53,067 nucleotides of DNA from Oscillospiraceae bacterium (lineage in GTDB: Bacteria; Bacillota; Clostridia; Oscillospirales; Acutalibacteraceae): positions 1 through 53,067 of the forward strand of contig CACWPS010000008.1 in assembly GCA_902762875.1 (NCBI GenBank), read 5' to 3'. The first letter of the stretch is position 1. Each line of letters starts with the position of its first letter. Under the pieces are notes generated by a model, which made no database searches, was not told the origin of the DNA, and saw only the letters and a list, made by a program, of their open reading frames with translations. Position numbers and translations under genes: made by a program. This document shows positions 11,289 through 52,770 of the stretch, in pieces.

Positions 11289-11921
11289 ATGAAAGACAAT
11301 GTATTTATTATGGACCACCCGCTCATTCAGCACAAGCTTTCCATTCTTCGGGATGAAAAGACCGGCTCGAAGCAGTTTAGGGAGCTTATAAGCGAAATTG
11401 CGATGCTTATGTGCTATGAGTCAACCCGTGACCTCCCCCTTGCCGAGGTTGAGACCAAAACCCCCATTACAACCGCTAAAACCAAGGTTTTAGCAGGCAG
11501 AAAAATGGCTTTTGTTCCGATTCTCCGTGCAGGTCTTGGCATGGTAGACGGCGTTTTAAGCCTTATCCCTGCCGCTCGAGTAGGCCACATAGGAATGTAC
11601 CGTGACCCCGAAACCCACAAGCCTGTTGACTACTACTGCAAGCTTCCCTCCGACCTTAACGAGCGTGATGTATTTGTGCTTGACCCCATGTTAGCTACCG
11701 GCGGAAGCGCTATTGATGCAGTTTCAAGGATTAAAGAGTTTAATCCTAAGCGCATTAAGTTTATGTGCATTATAGCCGCCCCCGAGGGAATCGAAGCCTT
11801 CACAGCCGCCCACCCTGATGTTCCCGTTTACTGTGCAGGACTTGACGACCATCTGAATGAGCATTGCTACATTGTTCCCGGTCTCGGTGATGCGGGCGAC
11901 CGTATTTTCGGTACAAAATAA
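11289..11921 (+). CDS. upp: Uracil phosphoribosyltransferase
   Basis: Salvages uracil with PRPP to UMP. The 210-residue protein has the PRPP-binding loop [10 protein letters not shown] and the uracil-binding C-terminal segment [17 protein letters not shown]. The ribosome binding site ACGGAGG is well placed. It is the last gene of the mtaB operon; a palindromic repeat with a T-run follows. Confidence 0.96.
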
Positions 11922-11940
11922 TTCTAAATAGTAAACAAAG

Positions 11941-12047
11941 GCCCCCTTGTGTAAAGGGGGCTGTCAGTATGACTGACTGGGGGATTGTTTTCAATGTACC
12001 GCAATCCCTCCGTCACTTCGTGACACCTCCCTTTGCACAAGGGAGGC
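11941..12047. repeat. Imperfect palindromic repeat element acting as two-way terminator
   Basis: About 107 bp fold into five consecutive hairpins: GCCCCCTT/AAGGGGGC (11941-11961), GTCAGT/ACTGAC (11963-11977), a central GGGATTG/CAATCCC pair (11981-11987 with 12002-12008), GTCAC/GTGAC (12012-12024) and CCTCCCTT/AAGGGAGG (12026-12046). The left half is a diverged reverse complement of the right half, so the whole is one large palindrome of the MITE or REP kind. The last stem is followed by a T-run for upp on the plus strand; the first stem is followed by a weaker T-rich run for proC on the minus strand. Confidence 0.75.
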
Positions 12048-12051
12048 ATTT

Positions 12052-18207: not shown

Positions 18208-18220
18208 ACCATACAATATA

Positions 18221-18291
18221 TAGTTCTTTGTGACTGACGGATAAGTGGAGCACCACATGAATCAAAGAACGAGTCAGCCGACCGTCTGGGC
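18221..18291 (+). promoter_or_regulatory. ZTP (pfl) riboswitch aptamer
   Basis: The RNA matches the pfl/ZTP architecture: P1 GUUCUUUG/CAAAGAAC (18223-18230 with 18263-18270), conserved UGACUGACGG after the P1 5-prime strand, a short GUGG/CCAC hairpin (18245-18256), and the conserved 3-prime block GCCGACCGUCUGGGC (18277-18291). This class binds ZTP/AICAR ribotide and turns expression on when 10-formyl-THF is scarce. It precedes purE and a whole purine and folate operon, the expected context. Confidence 0.88.
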
Positions 18292-18325
18292 ATACTTATC
18301 TTTCTTGGGTAAGTGTGCCCTTTTT
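18288..18325 (+). terminator. Riboswitch-controlled intrinsic terminator
   Basis: A 13-bp stem (18288-18300 with 18308-18320, two U-G pairs, loop UUUCUU) is followed by UUUUU. Its 5-prime strand begins with the GGGC of the aptamer's conserved CUGGGC, so ligand-bound aptamer and terminator are mutually exclusive. This is the usual ON-switch platform of ZTP riboswitches. Confidence 0.85.
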
Positions 18326-44515: not shown

Positions 44516-47278
44516 ATGACAGATATAGATAGAAAAAGAGCCGCAAAAGCCTTTGCGGAATATTGGAAAGATCGTGGTGACGAAAAGAGCGACAGCCAGT
44601 CCTTTTGGCTTTCTCTTGCACGTGACGTGTTGGGCGTTGCGGAGCCCGAAAAGTTTATATTGTTTGAAGAACGCGTAAAGTTGGACCATACCAGCTTTAT
44701 TGACGGTCATATTCCCTCTACGCATGTGTTGATCGAACAGAAAAAGAAGGGACTTAATTTGCGTAGTCCTATTCGTCAATCGGATGGTACTTTGCTCAAT
44801 CCTTTTCAGCAGGCACAGAGATATTCGGCGGCACTGCCTTATTCGCAGCGTCCTCGTTGGATCATCACTTGCAATTTTGAAGAGTTCCTTATCTACGATA
44901 TGGAGAAGCCTACAGGTGAGCCGGAAAGTATAATGCTTAAGGATCTCGGCAAGGAGTATTATCGCCTGCAATTTCTTGTAGAAGAAAAGAGTGAGCTTCT
45001 GCACCGAGAGGAACAGATCTCCATTAAAGCCGGTGAGCTTGTGGGCAAACTGTACGATGCCATTCTGAAGCAGTACATTCATCCAGATAGCGAGGAAACT
45101 CTGCGCAGCTTGAATATGCTTTGTGTCCGTCTTGTATTTTGCCTTTATGCAGAGGACGCAGGTATTTTCGGTGGTCATCTGAAATTCCATAATTACATAA
45201 AGAGCTTTAACGTGAAAGACGTGCGCCGCGCACTCATCGACCTTTTCCGTGTACTCGATACCAAAACCGAAGAGCGTGATCCGTATATGGATGGTGCTTT
45301 GGCGGCGTTCCCTTATGTAAACGGTGGTTTGTTTGCTGACGAAAATATTGAGATTCCTAATTTCACACAGGAAATCGTTGACCTTCTTCTTCATAATGCA
45401 AGTGAGGACTTTGACTGGAGCGACATCAGCCCCACCATCTTCGGCGCAGTATTTGAAAGCACCTTAAACCCCGAAACCCGCCGTAGCGGTGGTATGCACT
45501 ACACCTCTATCGAAAATATACATAAAGTTATTGACCCACTATTCCTTGATGAACTGCGCGAAGAATTGGAAGAAATCAAGGCTATAAAGGTTGCCAAGAC
45601 AAGAGAAACCAAAATAAATGATTTCCGTGAAAAGCTCGGAAACCTTACTTTCTTTGATCCTGCTTGTGGTTCGGGCAACTTTTTGACCGAAACCTATATT
45701 TCTCTGCGCCGTTTGGAAAATGAAGCTATTGAGGTTATTACGCAGGGGCAAATGCTCCTTGATTTTACCGGCATTATTAAAGTATCCATCGGTCAATTTT
45801 ACGGTATCGAAATCAATGATTTCGCTGTTACTGTTGCTAAAACTGCCCTTTGGATTGCCGAAAGCCAAATGATGAAAGAAACCGAGGTTATTGCACACAT
45901 CAACCTCAATTTTCTGCCGCTTAAATCCTATGCCAACATCGTAGAAGGCAACGCTTTGCGCACCGATTGGGAAACCGTTGTTCCTAAGGACAAGCTTAAT
46001 TATATAATGGGTAATCCGCCTTTTGTGGGGGCTCGCCTTATGACCAAAGAACAAAAGGATGATGTTGTCTCTGTTTTCGGCGCCAAGTGGAAAAATGCGG
46101 GTAATCTAGACTACGTTTCTTGTTGGTACAAAAAAGCTACTGATTTAATGAAGGGTACAAATATCCGTACCGCCTTGGTATCAACAAACTCAGTTTCACA
46201 AGGCGAAAGCGTTGCAATTCTGTGGAAACCTCTTTTTGAAGATGGTGTGCATATTGATTTTGCTCACCGCACATTCCGTTGGGATAGCGAAGCAAGTATT
46301 AAGGCTCACGTGCATTGTGTTATTATCGGCTTTAGCATTGCTCCGTTTTATAAATCTAAAGTCATATTTTCTGCAGAGCGACCTTTGATAGTAGATAACA
46401 TTAATGCGTATTTAATAGATGCGCCAGATGTCTTTATCGAAAGTGTGAAAAAAACTGTTTGCGATGTCCCTCAGCTTGTGTTTGGCAGCATGCCTAATGA
46501 TAATGGTTTTTTGAGTAGTTATTCTCAAGAAGAGCGAGATGCAATTGTAGCAGAATATCCCGAATCTGAAATAGTGTTCAAAAAATTTATTGGTGCAACG
46601 GAATTTATTAACAATAAGATTCGTTGGTGTATGTGGTTAAAAGGAGTATCTCCAAACATTATTCGTAACACACCTCCTATTGCAAAAGCAGTTGCATCTG
46701 TAAAAGAAATGCGTGAACAAAGCAATCGTGAAGCAACAAAGAAGTTAGCAGAAACCCCAACTCTTTTTGGAGAAATACGGCAACCTAGCGCAGATTATAT
46801 TGTTATTCCTCGAGTGTCCTCTGAAAGAAGAAAATATATTCCTATTGGCTTTTTGAATGCCGATTATATCGCTTCCGATGCAGTTCAAATCTTACCGGAT
46901 GCAAATATGTTTCACTTTGGAGTTCTGACCTCCAATGTGCATATGGCTTGGATGAGAGCTGTTTGCGGTAGATTGAAGAGTGATTACAGATATTCTGTAA
47001 ATATCGTTTATAACAATTTTCCGTGGCCGACTCCTACCGATGAGCAAAAAGCGGCCATTGAAAAAACCGCTCAAGCAATCCTTGACGCTCGCGTACTCTA
47101 TCCTGATTGTTCTTTGGCTGATCTCTACGATGAAGTGGCTATGCCACCGGAACTCCGAAAGGCACACCAAGCAAATGACCGTGCCGTGATGCAGGCGTAT
47201 GGTTTTGATGTAAAGACTATGACGGAGAGCACCTGTGTGGCAGAGCTTATGAAGATGTATCAGGAGTTAACGAAGTAA
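44516..47278 (+). CDS. MmeI-family single-chain restriction-modification enzyme
   Basis: 920 residues, almost exactly the length of MmeI (type IIL/IIG). The N-terminal nuclease has D63-x10-E74-Q-K76 (in FIDGHIPSTHVLIEQKKKG), the PD-ExK set needed for cutting. A helical spacer (about 155-320) is followed by an adenine methyltransferase with motif I FDPACGSGNFL (about 379) and motif IV NPPF (about 499), a target-recognition domain (about 610-820), and a C-terminal helical tail with FPWPTPTDEQKAAIE. All key residues are present, so both cutting and m6A modification are expected. Starts 41 bp after the membrane-protein gene with TTGGAGATG. Confidence 0.9.
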   Translation: MTDIDRKRAAKAFAEYWKDRGDEKSDSQSFWLSLARDVLGVAEPEKFILFEERVKLDHTSFIDGHIPSTHVLIEQKKKGLNLRSPIRQSDGTLLNPFQQAQRYSAALPYSQRPRWIITCNFEEFLIYDMEKPTGEPESIMLKDLGKEYYRLQFLVEEKSELLHREEQISIKAGELVGKLYDAILKQYIHPDSEETLRSLNMLCVRLVFCLYAEDAGIFGGHLKFHNYIKSFNVKDVRRALIDLFRVLDTKTEERDPYMDGALAAFPYVNGGLFADENIEIPNFTQEIVDLLLHNASEDFDWSDISPTIFGAVFESTLNPETRRSGGMHYTSIENIHKVIDPLFLDELREELEEIKAIKVAKTRETKINDFREKLGNLTFFDPACGSGNFLTETYISLRRLENEAIEVITQGQMLLDFTGIIKVSIGQFYGIEINDFAVTVAKTALWIAESQMMKETEVIAHINLNFLPLKSYANIVEGNALRTDWETVVPKDKLNYIMGNPPFVGARLMTKEQKDDVVSVFGAKWKNAGNLDYVSCWYKKATDLMKGTNIRTALVSTNSVSQGESVAILWKPLFEDGVHIDFAHRTFRWDSEASIKAHVHCVIIGFSIAPFYKSKVIFSAERPLIVDNINAYLIDAPDVFIESVKKTVCDVPQLVFGSMPNDNGFLSSYSQEERDAIVAEYPESEIVFKKFIGATEFINNKIRWCMWLKGVSPNIIRNTPPIAKAVASVKEMREQSNREATKKLAETPTLFGEIRQPSADYIVIPRVSSERRKYIPIGFLNADYIASDAVQILPDANMFHFGVLTSNVHMAWMRAVCGRLKSDYRYSVNIVYNNFPWPTPTDEQKAAIEKTAQAILDARVLYPDCSLADLYDEVAMPPELRKAHQANDRAVMQAYGFDVKTMTESTCVAELMKMYQELTK

Positions 47279-50831: not shown

Positions 50832-50999
50832 ATGGTAAAATATGTCGCACAGTCTTGGGAGCAGAAAATCGGCAACAAAATCGTGTCGATTACAAATTTA
50901 ACTCCTCAATTTTCTGTGGACGAAAAAAGAGAAGTAAAATTACAAATAGAAGCAAAATTATATGATGTTTTTTGCAAATATATGTCCTGTAAACCTTGA
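50832..50999 (+). CDS. Small protein upstream of the serine recombinase
   Basis: 55 residues: it starts MVKYVAQSWEQKIGNKIVSI, continues with TNLTPQFSVDEKREVK and ends in a helix (LQIEAKLYDVFCKYM). The ribosome site AGGAAGGAGAC is strong, and the sequence has normal codon use. I recall similar short ORFs ahead of large serine recombinases in Clostridia, but cannot name a family. It may be an accessory factor for excision, or merely element cargo. Confidence 0.6.
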   Translation: MVKYVAQSWEQKIGNKIVSITNLTPQFSVDEKREVKLQIEAKLYDVFCKYMSCKP

Positions 51000-51021
51000 A
51001 GAAAAAGGGCTGTTATGGTAT

Positions 51022-51196
51022 AACGAGCTTCGAGAAAACAATGTTTAACATTGTTTAGCCGATATATCGGCTTGTAAAAAATAATTGAAAATTATTTTTA
51101 CCGAACTCGTTGCAATGGAATAAACAAAATTATCAAAAGATAATTTTGTGCCAAATAAAATTTGGCAATCAACACAAGTTTACTCTTGTGTTGATT
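51022..51196. ncRNA. Uninterrupted array of hairpins (candidate structured RNA or recombination site)
   Basis: Six different stems follow each other. An outer pair AACGAG/CTCGTT (51022-51027 with 51106-51111) encloses H1 (9 bp, 51035-51057 region), H2 (perfect 16-bp palindrome 51057-51072) and H3 (10 bp, 51077-51099). Then H4 (11 bp, 51124-51149), H5 (7 bp, 51150-51166) and H6 (12 bp, 51167-51196) adjoin with no unpaired base between them. Stem sequences differ from one another, so it is neither a CRISPR nor a tandem repeat. No ORF covers it. Biochemical role unknown. Confidence 0.6.
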
Positions 51197-51261
51197 CCTT
51201 ATATCCATTATAATATATATGTCAGCAGCTCCGCTTCTTTTTGCGAAGAAGGGAGTAAAAA

Positions 51262-52770
51262 TTGAATCTTTTTGACGCAATTTATGCAAGACAATCGGTT
51301 GACAGGATAGACAGCATATCCGTGGAAAGTCAAATCGAATTTTGCAAAAAGGAAGTGACAGGAGAAAGTTATAAAGTTTATACCGACAAGGGTTATAGCG
51401 GCAAAAACATAGACCGCCCCGCGTTTCAAGACTTGTTGCGTGATATAGAGGCAGGTAAAGTAAACCGTGTTATCGTTTACCGCCTTGACCGTATCAGCCG
51501 TTCGGTGCTTGATTTCGCCAATTTAATCGAAGTGTTTCAAAAGAACCATGTTGACTTTGTTAGTACGATGGAGAAATTCGACACTTCAACACCTATTGGC
51601 AAGGCTATGCTGATGATTGTTATGATTTTCGCACAGCTTGAGCGTGAGACCATTCAGCAGCGTGTTATTGATGCCTATTCTTCACGTAGCAAACGTGGTT
51701 TTTATATGGGTGGCAGAGTACCGTTTGGGTTTGAACTGGTGGAAACAATCATAGACGGAATACGAACAAAAATGTATAAGCCGATCGAAGAAGAAGCAGA
51801 GGTTATCAGATTAATATTTTCAATGTATGCAAAGCCTCAAACCTCATTTGGTGATGTAATGCGTTACTTGGAAGAGCACGGCATACGAAAGCGTGACGGT
51901 AAACTCTTTAATCGTAGCCGTCTTCGTGATGTTGTAATCAACCCTGCGTATGTAAAAGCCGACTATCAGCTTTATGAATTCTTTAAAGCACAAGGCACAA
52001 ACATTGTCAATACTCCTCAGGATTTTATAGGTATAAACGGAGCGTATCTTTATTCGGGAGATAATCTTAAGCGAAAAACAATATCCTTAGTAGGTCACAC
52101 ATTGGTTTTGGCTCCACACGAGGGGCTTGTTGATTCGGCAATGTGGATTAAATGCCGTTCCAAGTGCTTAAACAATCAAAGCGTTGCACGGCCCATCAAG
52201 GCAAAAGCCACTTGGCTTGCGGGTAAAATTAAATGTGCAAACTGCGGATATGCTTTAACCGCTAAGATTTATAAGTGCAAAACTAAGTCCGATAACCGTT
52301 ATTATCTCTGCACAAACAAATATCACTCCGGTGGATGTAACTTTGGCTCATTGGATGCTGATGTTGTGGACGACATTGTATTCAAAGAAATGCAGAAGAA
52401 ATTAGCGGAATTTCAGACACTGTCAAAGAAAAAGCAGGATGGCTGTAACCTGCAAGTTATTAAACTTAAAACTCGCATAGAAGAAATTGATTCGGAAATA
52501 TCCTCTTTGCTCGAAAAAATCGTTTCGGCAAATGATACGGTGATGCAGTACATAAACAACCGCGTTGCCGAGCTTGATGCTGAGAAGAAAGAACTTGGCG
52601 CTGAGATTGTTTCATTAGAGAGCAACCGCACAAACGATGTGGGAGAAATCAGCGGATATTTTGAGCATTGGGATGAACTGTCGGTTAGCGACAAAATCAC
52701 GGTGGTTGACTGCCTGATAGAGCGTATAACCGCCTCAAAAGAAAGCATTGAAATCAAGTGGAAGATATAA
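51262..52770 (+). CDS. Large serine recombinase
   Basis: 502 residues starting at TTG behind GAAGGGAG. The resolvase domain (about 1-150) has the catalytic serine in YARQS (Ser12) and VYRLDRISR; a Recombinase domain follows (about 165-275), then a zinc ribbon (CANCGYAL ... CTNKYHSGGC, about 325-365) and a coiled coil (about 395-455). This is the layout of integrases of Tn/ICE and phages. A small stem (51234-51239 with 51246-51251) overlaps its ribosome site. It appears intact and could mobilise the neighbouring DNA. Confidence 0.93.
   Translation: MNLFDAIYARQSVDRIDSISVESQIEFCKKEVTGESYKVYTDKGYSGKNIDRPAFQDLLRDIEAGKVNRVIVYRLDRISRSVLDFANLIEVFQKNHVDFVSTMEKFDTSTPIGKAMLMIVMIFAQLERETIQQRVIDAYSSRSKRGFYMGGRVPFGFELVETIIDGIRTKMYKPIEEEAEVIRLIFSMYAKPQTSFGDVMRYLEEHGIRKRDGKLFNRSRLRDVVINPAYVKADYQLYEFFKAQGTNIVNTPQDFIGINGAYLYSGDNLKRKTISLVGHTLVLAPHEGLVDSAMWIKCRSKCLNNQSVARPIKAKATWLAGKIKCANCGYALTAKIYKCKTKSDNRYYLCTNKYHSGGCNFGSLDADVVDDIVFKEMQKKLAEFQTLSKKKQDGCNLQVIKLKTRIEEIDSEISSLLEKIVSANDTVMQYINNRVAELDAEKKELGAEIVSLESNRTNDVGEISGYFEHWDELSVSDKITVVDCLIERITASKESIEIKWKI

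Follow-up and report, generated by a model that had tools for sequence, protein, structure and literature searches.

Between a 55-aa ORF (50832..50999, + strand) and a large serine recombinase gene with a TTG start (502 aa; 51262..52770, + strand), in what we call the window, meaning the whole 53,067-nucleotide stretch of DNA analyzed here, lies a dense array of hairpins, and the question that it raises is what kind of feature such an array is. The original prediction, made from the letters alone, held that the array explains no known feature type, and offered as possibilities a structured leader gating recombinase translation, a small RNA, a single-stranded DNA substrate, or the attachment or transfer site of the element carrying the recombinase. 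We conclude with high confidence that the array is one member of a family of non-autonomous mobile DNA repeats with a double-cloverleaf structure, inserted at the recombinase promoter, and among the options offered earlier a DNA substrate fits best.

Fold of the array

Folding of positions 51000-51280 yielded -89 kcal/mol (z -7.8), and the inserted element delimited below (188 bp, 51022..51209), folded as single-stranded DNA, reached z -11.2; in either case none of 200 shuffles folded equally well, bearing out the claim that hairpin density here lies far above chance. The element has a GC content of 29%, and its GC-corrected fold score of -5.7 compares with a best of -4.5 among 1126 tiles of the 53 kb; in raw energy, at least 10 GC-richer tiles fold more stably than the array. 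The longest ORFs over the array are 51 and 63 aa. Elsewhere in the window, a strongly folded stretch with inner hairpins at 11935-12050 (GGCCCCCTTGTG...CACAAGGGAGGC; the tile that begins at 11892 has a GC-corrected score of -4.2) may be a common palindromic repeat of Clostridia.

The element comprises two inverted cloverleaf modules, to none of which, nor to the element itself, a strand is assigned. The left module (51022..51111, delimited by the fold) pairs 51022-51032 with 51102-51111 in an outer stem around hairpins at 51036-51056, 51057-51072, and 51077-51099; after a 2-bp GC spacer (51112..51113, placed by the alignment), the right module (51114..51209, placed by the fold and by a match to a covariance model that includes the window sequence) pairs 51114-51123 with 51199-51209 around abutting hairpins at 51124-51149, 51150-51166, and 51167-51196. 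The junction between modules reads CGTT-GC-AATG in the window copy, the commonest form in the alignment being CATT-GC-AATG, and the left outer stem is ACGAGCTTCG/CGAACTCGT, with AATGATTRTAG and its partner in most aligned copies. An outer stem around the first three hairpins had been correctly predicted, but the last three had been taken as unenclosed; since a second outer stem encloses these, the array consists of two equivalent modules rather than one enclosed and one open. The array had also been extended to 51261, beyond the end of the inserted feature at 51209, and to a seventh, weak stem across the ribosome site of the recombinase (51233..51256, + strand); that stem exists, but it is the recombinase leader's own, its sequence being present in relatives that lack the array.

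Insertion at the recombinase gene

A search with the recombinase returned 51 loci, of which the 40 reaching the gene start were inspected. Eight near-identical loci (L002-L006, L008, L040, and L050) carry the site uninterrupted, six of them with the sequence GGTATAATATATATG. Relative to this empty site, the window holds 190 additional bp, that is, the 188-bp element plus a duplicated AT, in the arrangement GGT-AT-(188 bp)-AT-AATATATATG; the two copies of this 2-bp target duplication, likewise unstranded, lie at 51020..51021 on the left, as set by the empty-site comparison, and at 51210..51211 on the right. In four of the loci (L005, L006, L040, and L050), the empty site includes a TTGAAG-17-TATAAT promoter that lies 76 nt ahead of the start; L040 scored 10 of 12 in the promoter scan, and a loose promoter pattern matched 23 of the 40 loci. 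The insertion point is the -10 box, where TATAAT has become TATAAC in the window. The recombinase is left with this TATAAC box (TTGAAG, 17 nt, TATAAC; 50996..51024, + strand), with a -35 box now 266 nt from its start codon, and with a structured leader of 190 nt, and by its position the array now sits within the recombinase 5-prime leader. The element has entered the promoter's -10 box and makes up most of the predicted recombinase mRNA leader, and its insertion may have lowered recombinase expression.

The 55-aa ORF lies outside the element, is kept in close relatives of the locus, and has no Pfam or NCBIfam match. Upstream of it lies a full-length MmeI-type restriction-modification protein (920 aa; 44516-47278, + strand), after which come an ORF whose HEPN_Swt1 match is weak and under the cutoff and a T5orf172 ORF, while downstream of the recombinase the contig end (52939-53067) resembles, by eye, an insertion-sequence end. 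Several other recombinase leaders (among them L010, L026, L033, and L045) show, again by eye, an inverted repeat like CGGAGCTG...CAGCTCCG that brackets the -10 box and might represent either an operator or a site for a recombinase.

Copies and distribution of the repeat family

A search with the window copy turned up a single diverged relative, L057 (70% identity, genome E 0.0018). When L057 itself served as the query, 40 of 70 genomes of the same genus matched at E<=0.01 and 33 of the 70 had a best E<=1e-13, with the window's genome and that of L057 included in both numbers, and this query recovered the window copy at 3.4e-4; the window's genome carries further copies on contigs 2 (two), 11, 13, and 15. 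Across the taxonomic family, a covariance model of the right module matched 18 of 200 genomes, spread over 13 of 135 genera, three of these genomes (G160, G217, and G233) holding cloverleafs of unrelated sequence. At class level, covariance matches were found in 4 of 391 genomes, including the window's own: G462, from another taxonomic family, has 7 matches, and the four inspected are a variant with the same layout whose ends differ beyond AATG; the match in G645, a weak one, lies near a contig end of a genome that is 77% complete and 5% contaminated; and a weak match in G572 (L265) was discounted, as it looks like a lone hairpin. Viral contigs searched with three exact motifs gave no family match, and blastn against plasmids and phages returned short weak matches only for the window copy and none for the copy L192.

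A full copy is about 190-210 bp long and consists of two homologous modules placed head to head, 2 bp apart, each with an outer stem around three almost gapless hairpins, which makes it a four-way junction; the right-module model also matches left modules on the opposite strand, so the two are inverted homologues. Identical copies occur at different sites within one genome (G265), three of 194 bp and two of 211 bp, the latter from a second subfamily, and L214 and L215 seem to combine modules from different subfamilies. Shorter derivatives were recognized by eye, namely single modules (L099 and L191), single hairpins (L127, L128, and L142, of which the first two, from different genomes, apparently occupy one and the same place), and, in G079, G029, and G017, forms of 56 bp bounded by end motifs. 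The repeats are small, without a recognizable gene, and dispersed in multiple copies, and we file the family as a MITE-like bacterial repeat of new structural architecture. The alignment used below contains 40 copies; it was made from 45 by dropping two duplicate loci (L073 and L103), two copies with an unrecognized right end (L089 and L120), L110, and one of two L094 copies, and by adding the window copy. L094 was additionally excluded from alignment A4 (39 rows).

Target site and search for a mobilizing enzyme

The dinucleotides flanking a copy are equal in 84 of 87 cases, being AT in 83 and AC in L088, and unequal in L086, L098, and L116. Most copies are preceded by TT-AT and followed by AT-AA, and the TT before and AA after point to a symmetric TTATAA-like target; we suggest that the element enters such a site and that its central AT is duplicated. 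The duplication is exact at the recombinase promoter, the one locus with an exactly known empty site, and is represented elsewhere by the equal dinucleotides, where, nearly all flanks being AT, the AT could also count as element sequence. One further place, that of L194 in G265, is empty at the orthologous position in G267, with the exact borders hidden by divergence. The outermost four bases of both ends match in most copies, and 39 of 40 have a mismatch at position 5. A -35 match (at least 5/6, at 16-18 nt) accompanies 9 of the 105 left ends and 8 of the 121 right ends, against means of 1.9 and 2.3 and a maximum of 8 each in 500 base shuffles of the flanks; with 17 of 226 ends so placed, compared with about 4 expected, only a minority of copies appears to lie in promoters, as the window copy does.

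We infer that an enzyme acting in trans moves the repeat, probably one that recognizes folded or palindromic DNA, and two transposase families, IS30 and Y1, were compared with copy number. IS30 occurs in 9 of 70 genomes and, among the multi-copy G005, G007, G011, G017, G029, G030, and G047, in G005 only; the end motif was absent from 10 IS30 loci, and IS30 was rejected as the mobilizer since its presence does not track copy number. Y1 does not track copy number either, with matches in 49 of 70 genomes and none in the copy-rich G005 and G047, the latter 96% complete and holding 14 family matches. IS200/IS605 elements use an asymmetric target and leave no duplication, and derivation from them does not fit the symmetric flanks and the single AT at the empty site.

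End motifs searched in 12 genomes and paired by eye gave no end pair around a transposase. Exact motifs were used in eleven of these genomes and up to one mismatch was allowed in the twelfth, where 97 matches compared with 78 in the control, so that only the exact ones were used from it. Inward-facing end pairs 0.3-5 kb apart were seen in the 12 genomes at only two places, both in G047 and both formed by separate copies, two full ones around an ordinary ORF (C38) and one partial with one full copy (C13); the covariance search also found two copies around an intact ORF (G143:C34). According to the excerpt consulted of one survey (PMC2229807), for most bacterial MITEs an autonomous partner had not been found or looked for, and so the missing partner does not decide membership here.

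The same module shape in unrelated sequence

Three weak covariance matches (L168, L169, and L170) proved to be other sequences with a similar fold. The L169 element has at least 46 matching stretches in its genome, G160, the best 40 of 219 candidates having been scored, and occupies at least 40 places after opposite-strand self matches are merged; we call these repeats, which are single modules, family B, and the window's family A. Of 34 G160 loci (L296-L313, L317-L328, and L332-L335), 33 gave a match and L313 none, and the copies L298 and L301 have flanking sequence in common. Folded with 12 flank bases, all 33 copies contain a three-hairpin junction; trimmed to the junction of this first fold and refolded, all 33 form a single three-hairpin junction, 31 of them with at most 2 unpaired bases in it, and at a cut of 3 or fewer unpaired bases 32 of 33 copies qualify, compared with 3 of 330 shuffles and none of 132 windows from the flanks. 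Alignment A5 of this family is without L297, L325, and L328, which are kept in the fold counts. The L170 element in G217 has 8 matches and folds less regularly, a short outer stem enclosing two hairpins; in G233, a single full match was seen. Family B shows that a repeat family of unrelated sequence, in another genus, is built from what is predicted to be the same kind of single-module fold.

Covariation and strand character of the stems

Among the 40 aligned copies of family A, 94.8% of cells in the two-module structure are paired, and 47 of 73 pairs have changed on both sides, a level that none of 500 shuffles attained and that also exceeds all slid controls. The outer stems covary as well (7 of 10 pairs on the right, 3 of 9 on the left). 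A fold in which the outer ends pair with each other around a central hairpin was rejected as the conserved one, with 2 of 17 pairs covarying, which equals the shuffle level, though 30 of 87 copies fold so alone. Pairing is thus upheld by compensatory change within modules and not between outer ends, and the compensatory changes that had been set beforehand as the test of the predicted stems are present among the copies. When copies were folded alone, 52 of 87 formed two three-branch junctions and 30 one seven-branch loop; at least one junction with 8 or fewer unpaired bases was seen in 53 of 87 copies versus 50 of 870 shuffles, and two such junctions in 43 versus none. Over the stems of 87 sequences, 5728 pairs are Watson-Crick, and the mismatches number 123 G.T, 131 A.C, and 282 others; since RNA tolerates G.U but not A.C, these equal counts make the constraint, taken overall, look like one on DNA.

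A DNA-level process could also have produced the covariation if the fold itself were unselected, with template switching at quasi-palindromes correcting the arms of an ordinary MITE and the compensatory changes arising as a mutational by-product. The similar G.T and A.C counts fit this, as do the short hairpin loops; however, the outer stems covary too, with arms about 70 nt apart and three hairpins between them, and template switching alone leaves the architecture common to an unrelated family unexplained. We therefore rate this account as a genuine possibility, though one with the odds clearly against it.

It is conceivable, though we think it rather unlikely, that the repeats are single-strand mimics of Holliday junctions, a mobile class whose defining trait is shape rather than sequence. 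Recognition of the folded four-way junction would then fall to a structure-specific recombinase or a junction-binding protein, and if so, any sequence folding in this way could spread, which would explain the near-gapless three-hairpin junction common to families A and B despite the free change of their sequences.

The strong covariation would also be expected of a family of small RNAs that is transcribed and under selection as RNA at every location, and when both halves are read from the center outward, G.T exceeds A.C by 154 to 100, shared ancestry included (in the left half A.C 74 and G.T 43, in the right G.T 80 and A.C 57). This excess leaves room for a strand-specific role of the repeat. 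Against an RNA stand the DNA-like mismatch balance overall, the sense strand of 19 copies with co-directional neighbors, which shows 18 G.T and 29 A.C, the stems of family B, with 8 G.T among 1253 pairs, and the small number of ends with a spaced -35 box given above. The small RNA that the original prediction entertained consequently seems to us quite improbable.

Alternative roles at the recombinase locus

In favor of a structured 5-prime leader kept in order to regulate translation of the recombinase, one can point to the place of the array between promoter and start codon and to its very stable fold. The family profile, however, matched none of the 40 recombinase loci reaching the gene start (L002 and L003 with less than 100 bp upstream), and eight of these are empty sites; the array did not reach the gathering threshold of any Rfam family, its matches being sub-threshold only, at E 1.3 or worse; and the ORFs neighboring the 40 aligned copies, the window's included, stand in every relative orientation (12 ++, 12 -+, 7 --, 4 +-, and 5 undetermined, from crude ORF calls). 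In the window, only a ZMP/ZTP riboswitch at 18220-18298 (+ strand) reaches the gathering score of an Rfam family. We consider a regulatory leader very improbable and, in view of the empty sites, largely refuted; the insertion, with relatives elsewhere in the genome and genus and close relatives of the locus without the array, argues against a leader dedicated to this gene and, on this evidence, against an attachment site as well. To the latter, whether for attachment or for transfer of the element that carries the recombinase, we give almost no weight, even though the array adjoins a large serine recombinase and a 2-bp shared core would suit serine recombination, since close relatives of the recombinase lack the array and many copies of the family are dispersed elsewhere in the genus.

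Comparison with known repeats

Small bacterial repeats are usually pictured as families related by sequence, whose terminal repeats serve a transposase. What is conserved in the family described here is an architecture: compensatory change preserves a near-gapless four-way junction as the sequence turns over, modules appear to be exchanged between subfamilies, and an unrelated family of repeats shows the same module shape. Should recognition depend on shape, these repeats offer a testable entry to how such elements spread and rewire promoters.

Among the matches listed, the open-licence titles and opening abstracts included none on bacterial repeats with cloverleaf modules or on this family, which hints that both the family and its cloverleaf-module architecture may be new to the literature. 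The following likenesses and differences are drawn against the excerpts consulted of the papers cited. Repetitive hairpin-forming elements of sponge mitochondria (PMC2800124) are likewise invasive repeats in intergenic DNA, though they belong to a different compartment and are likened here by description and not by sequence or fold. BOX elements of Streptococcus (PMC3049150) share modularity, exchangeable pieces, and dispersal, but the present family has two inverted copies of one self-complete module type in place of a boxA-B-C series. REP and REPIN sequences with their RAYT Y1 transposases (PMC3116915, PMC2817692) are palindromic DNA repeats in inverted pairs, as here, whereas Y1 genes do not track our family, whose target is symmetric with a 2-bp duplication.

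The nearest comparison set is that of the bacterial MITE-like repeats RUP, ERIC, NEMIS/Correia, and CIR (PMC2229807), and the earlier verdict of no known feature type was in this respect too strong. As the excerpt portrays them, these repeats are, like ours, small, A+T-rich, gene-free, dispersed, strongly base-paired, and associated with a target duplication. The present family differs from them in that its pairing is kept inside two modules and not between termini, in that the modules are four-way junctions, and in that AT within TTATAA is duplicated, with no terminal TA as the ends are defined here.
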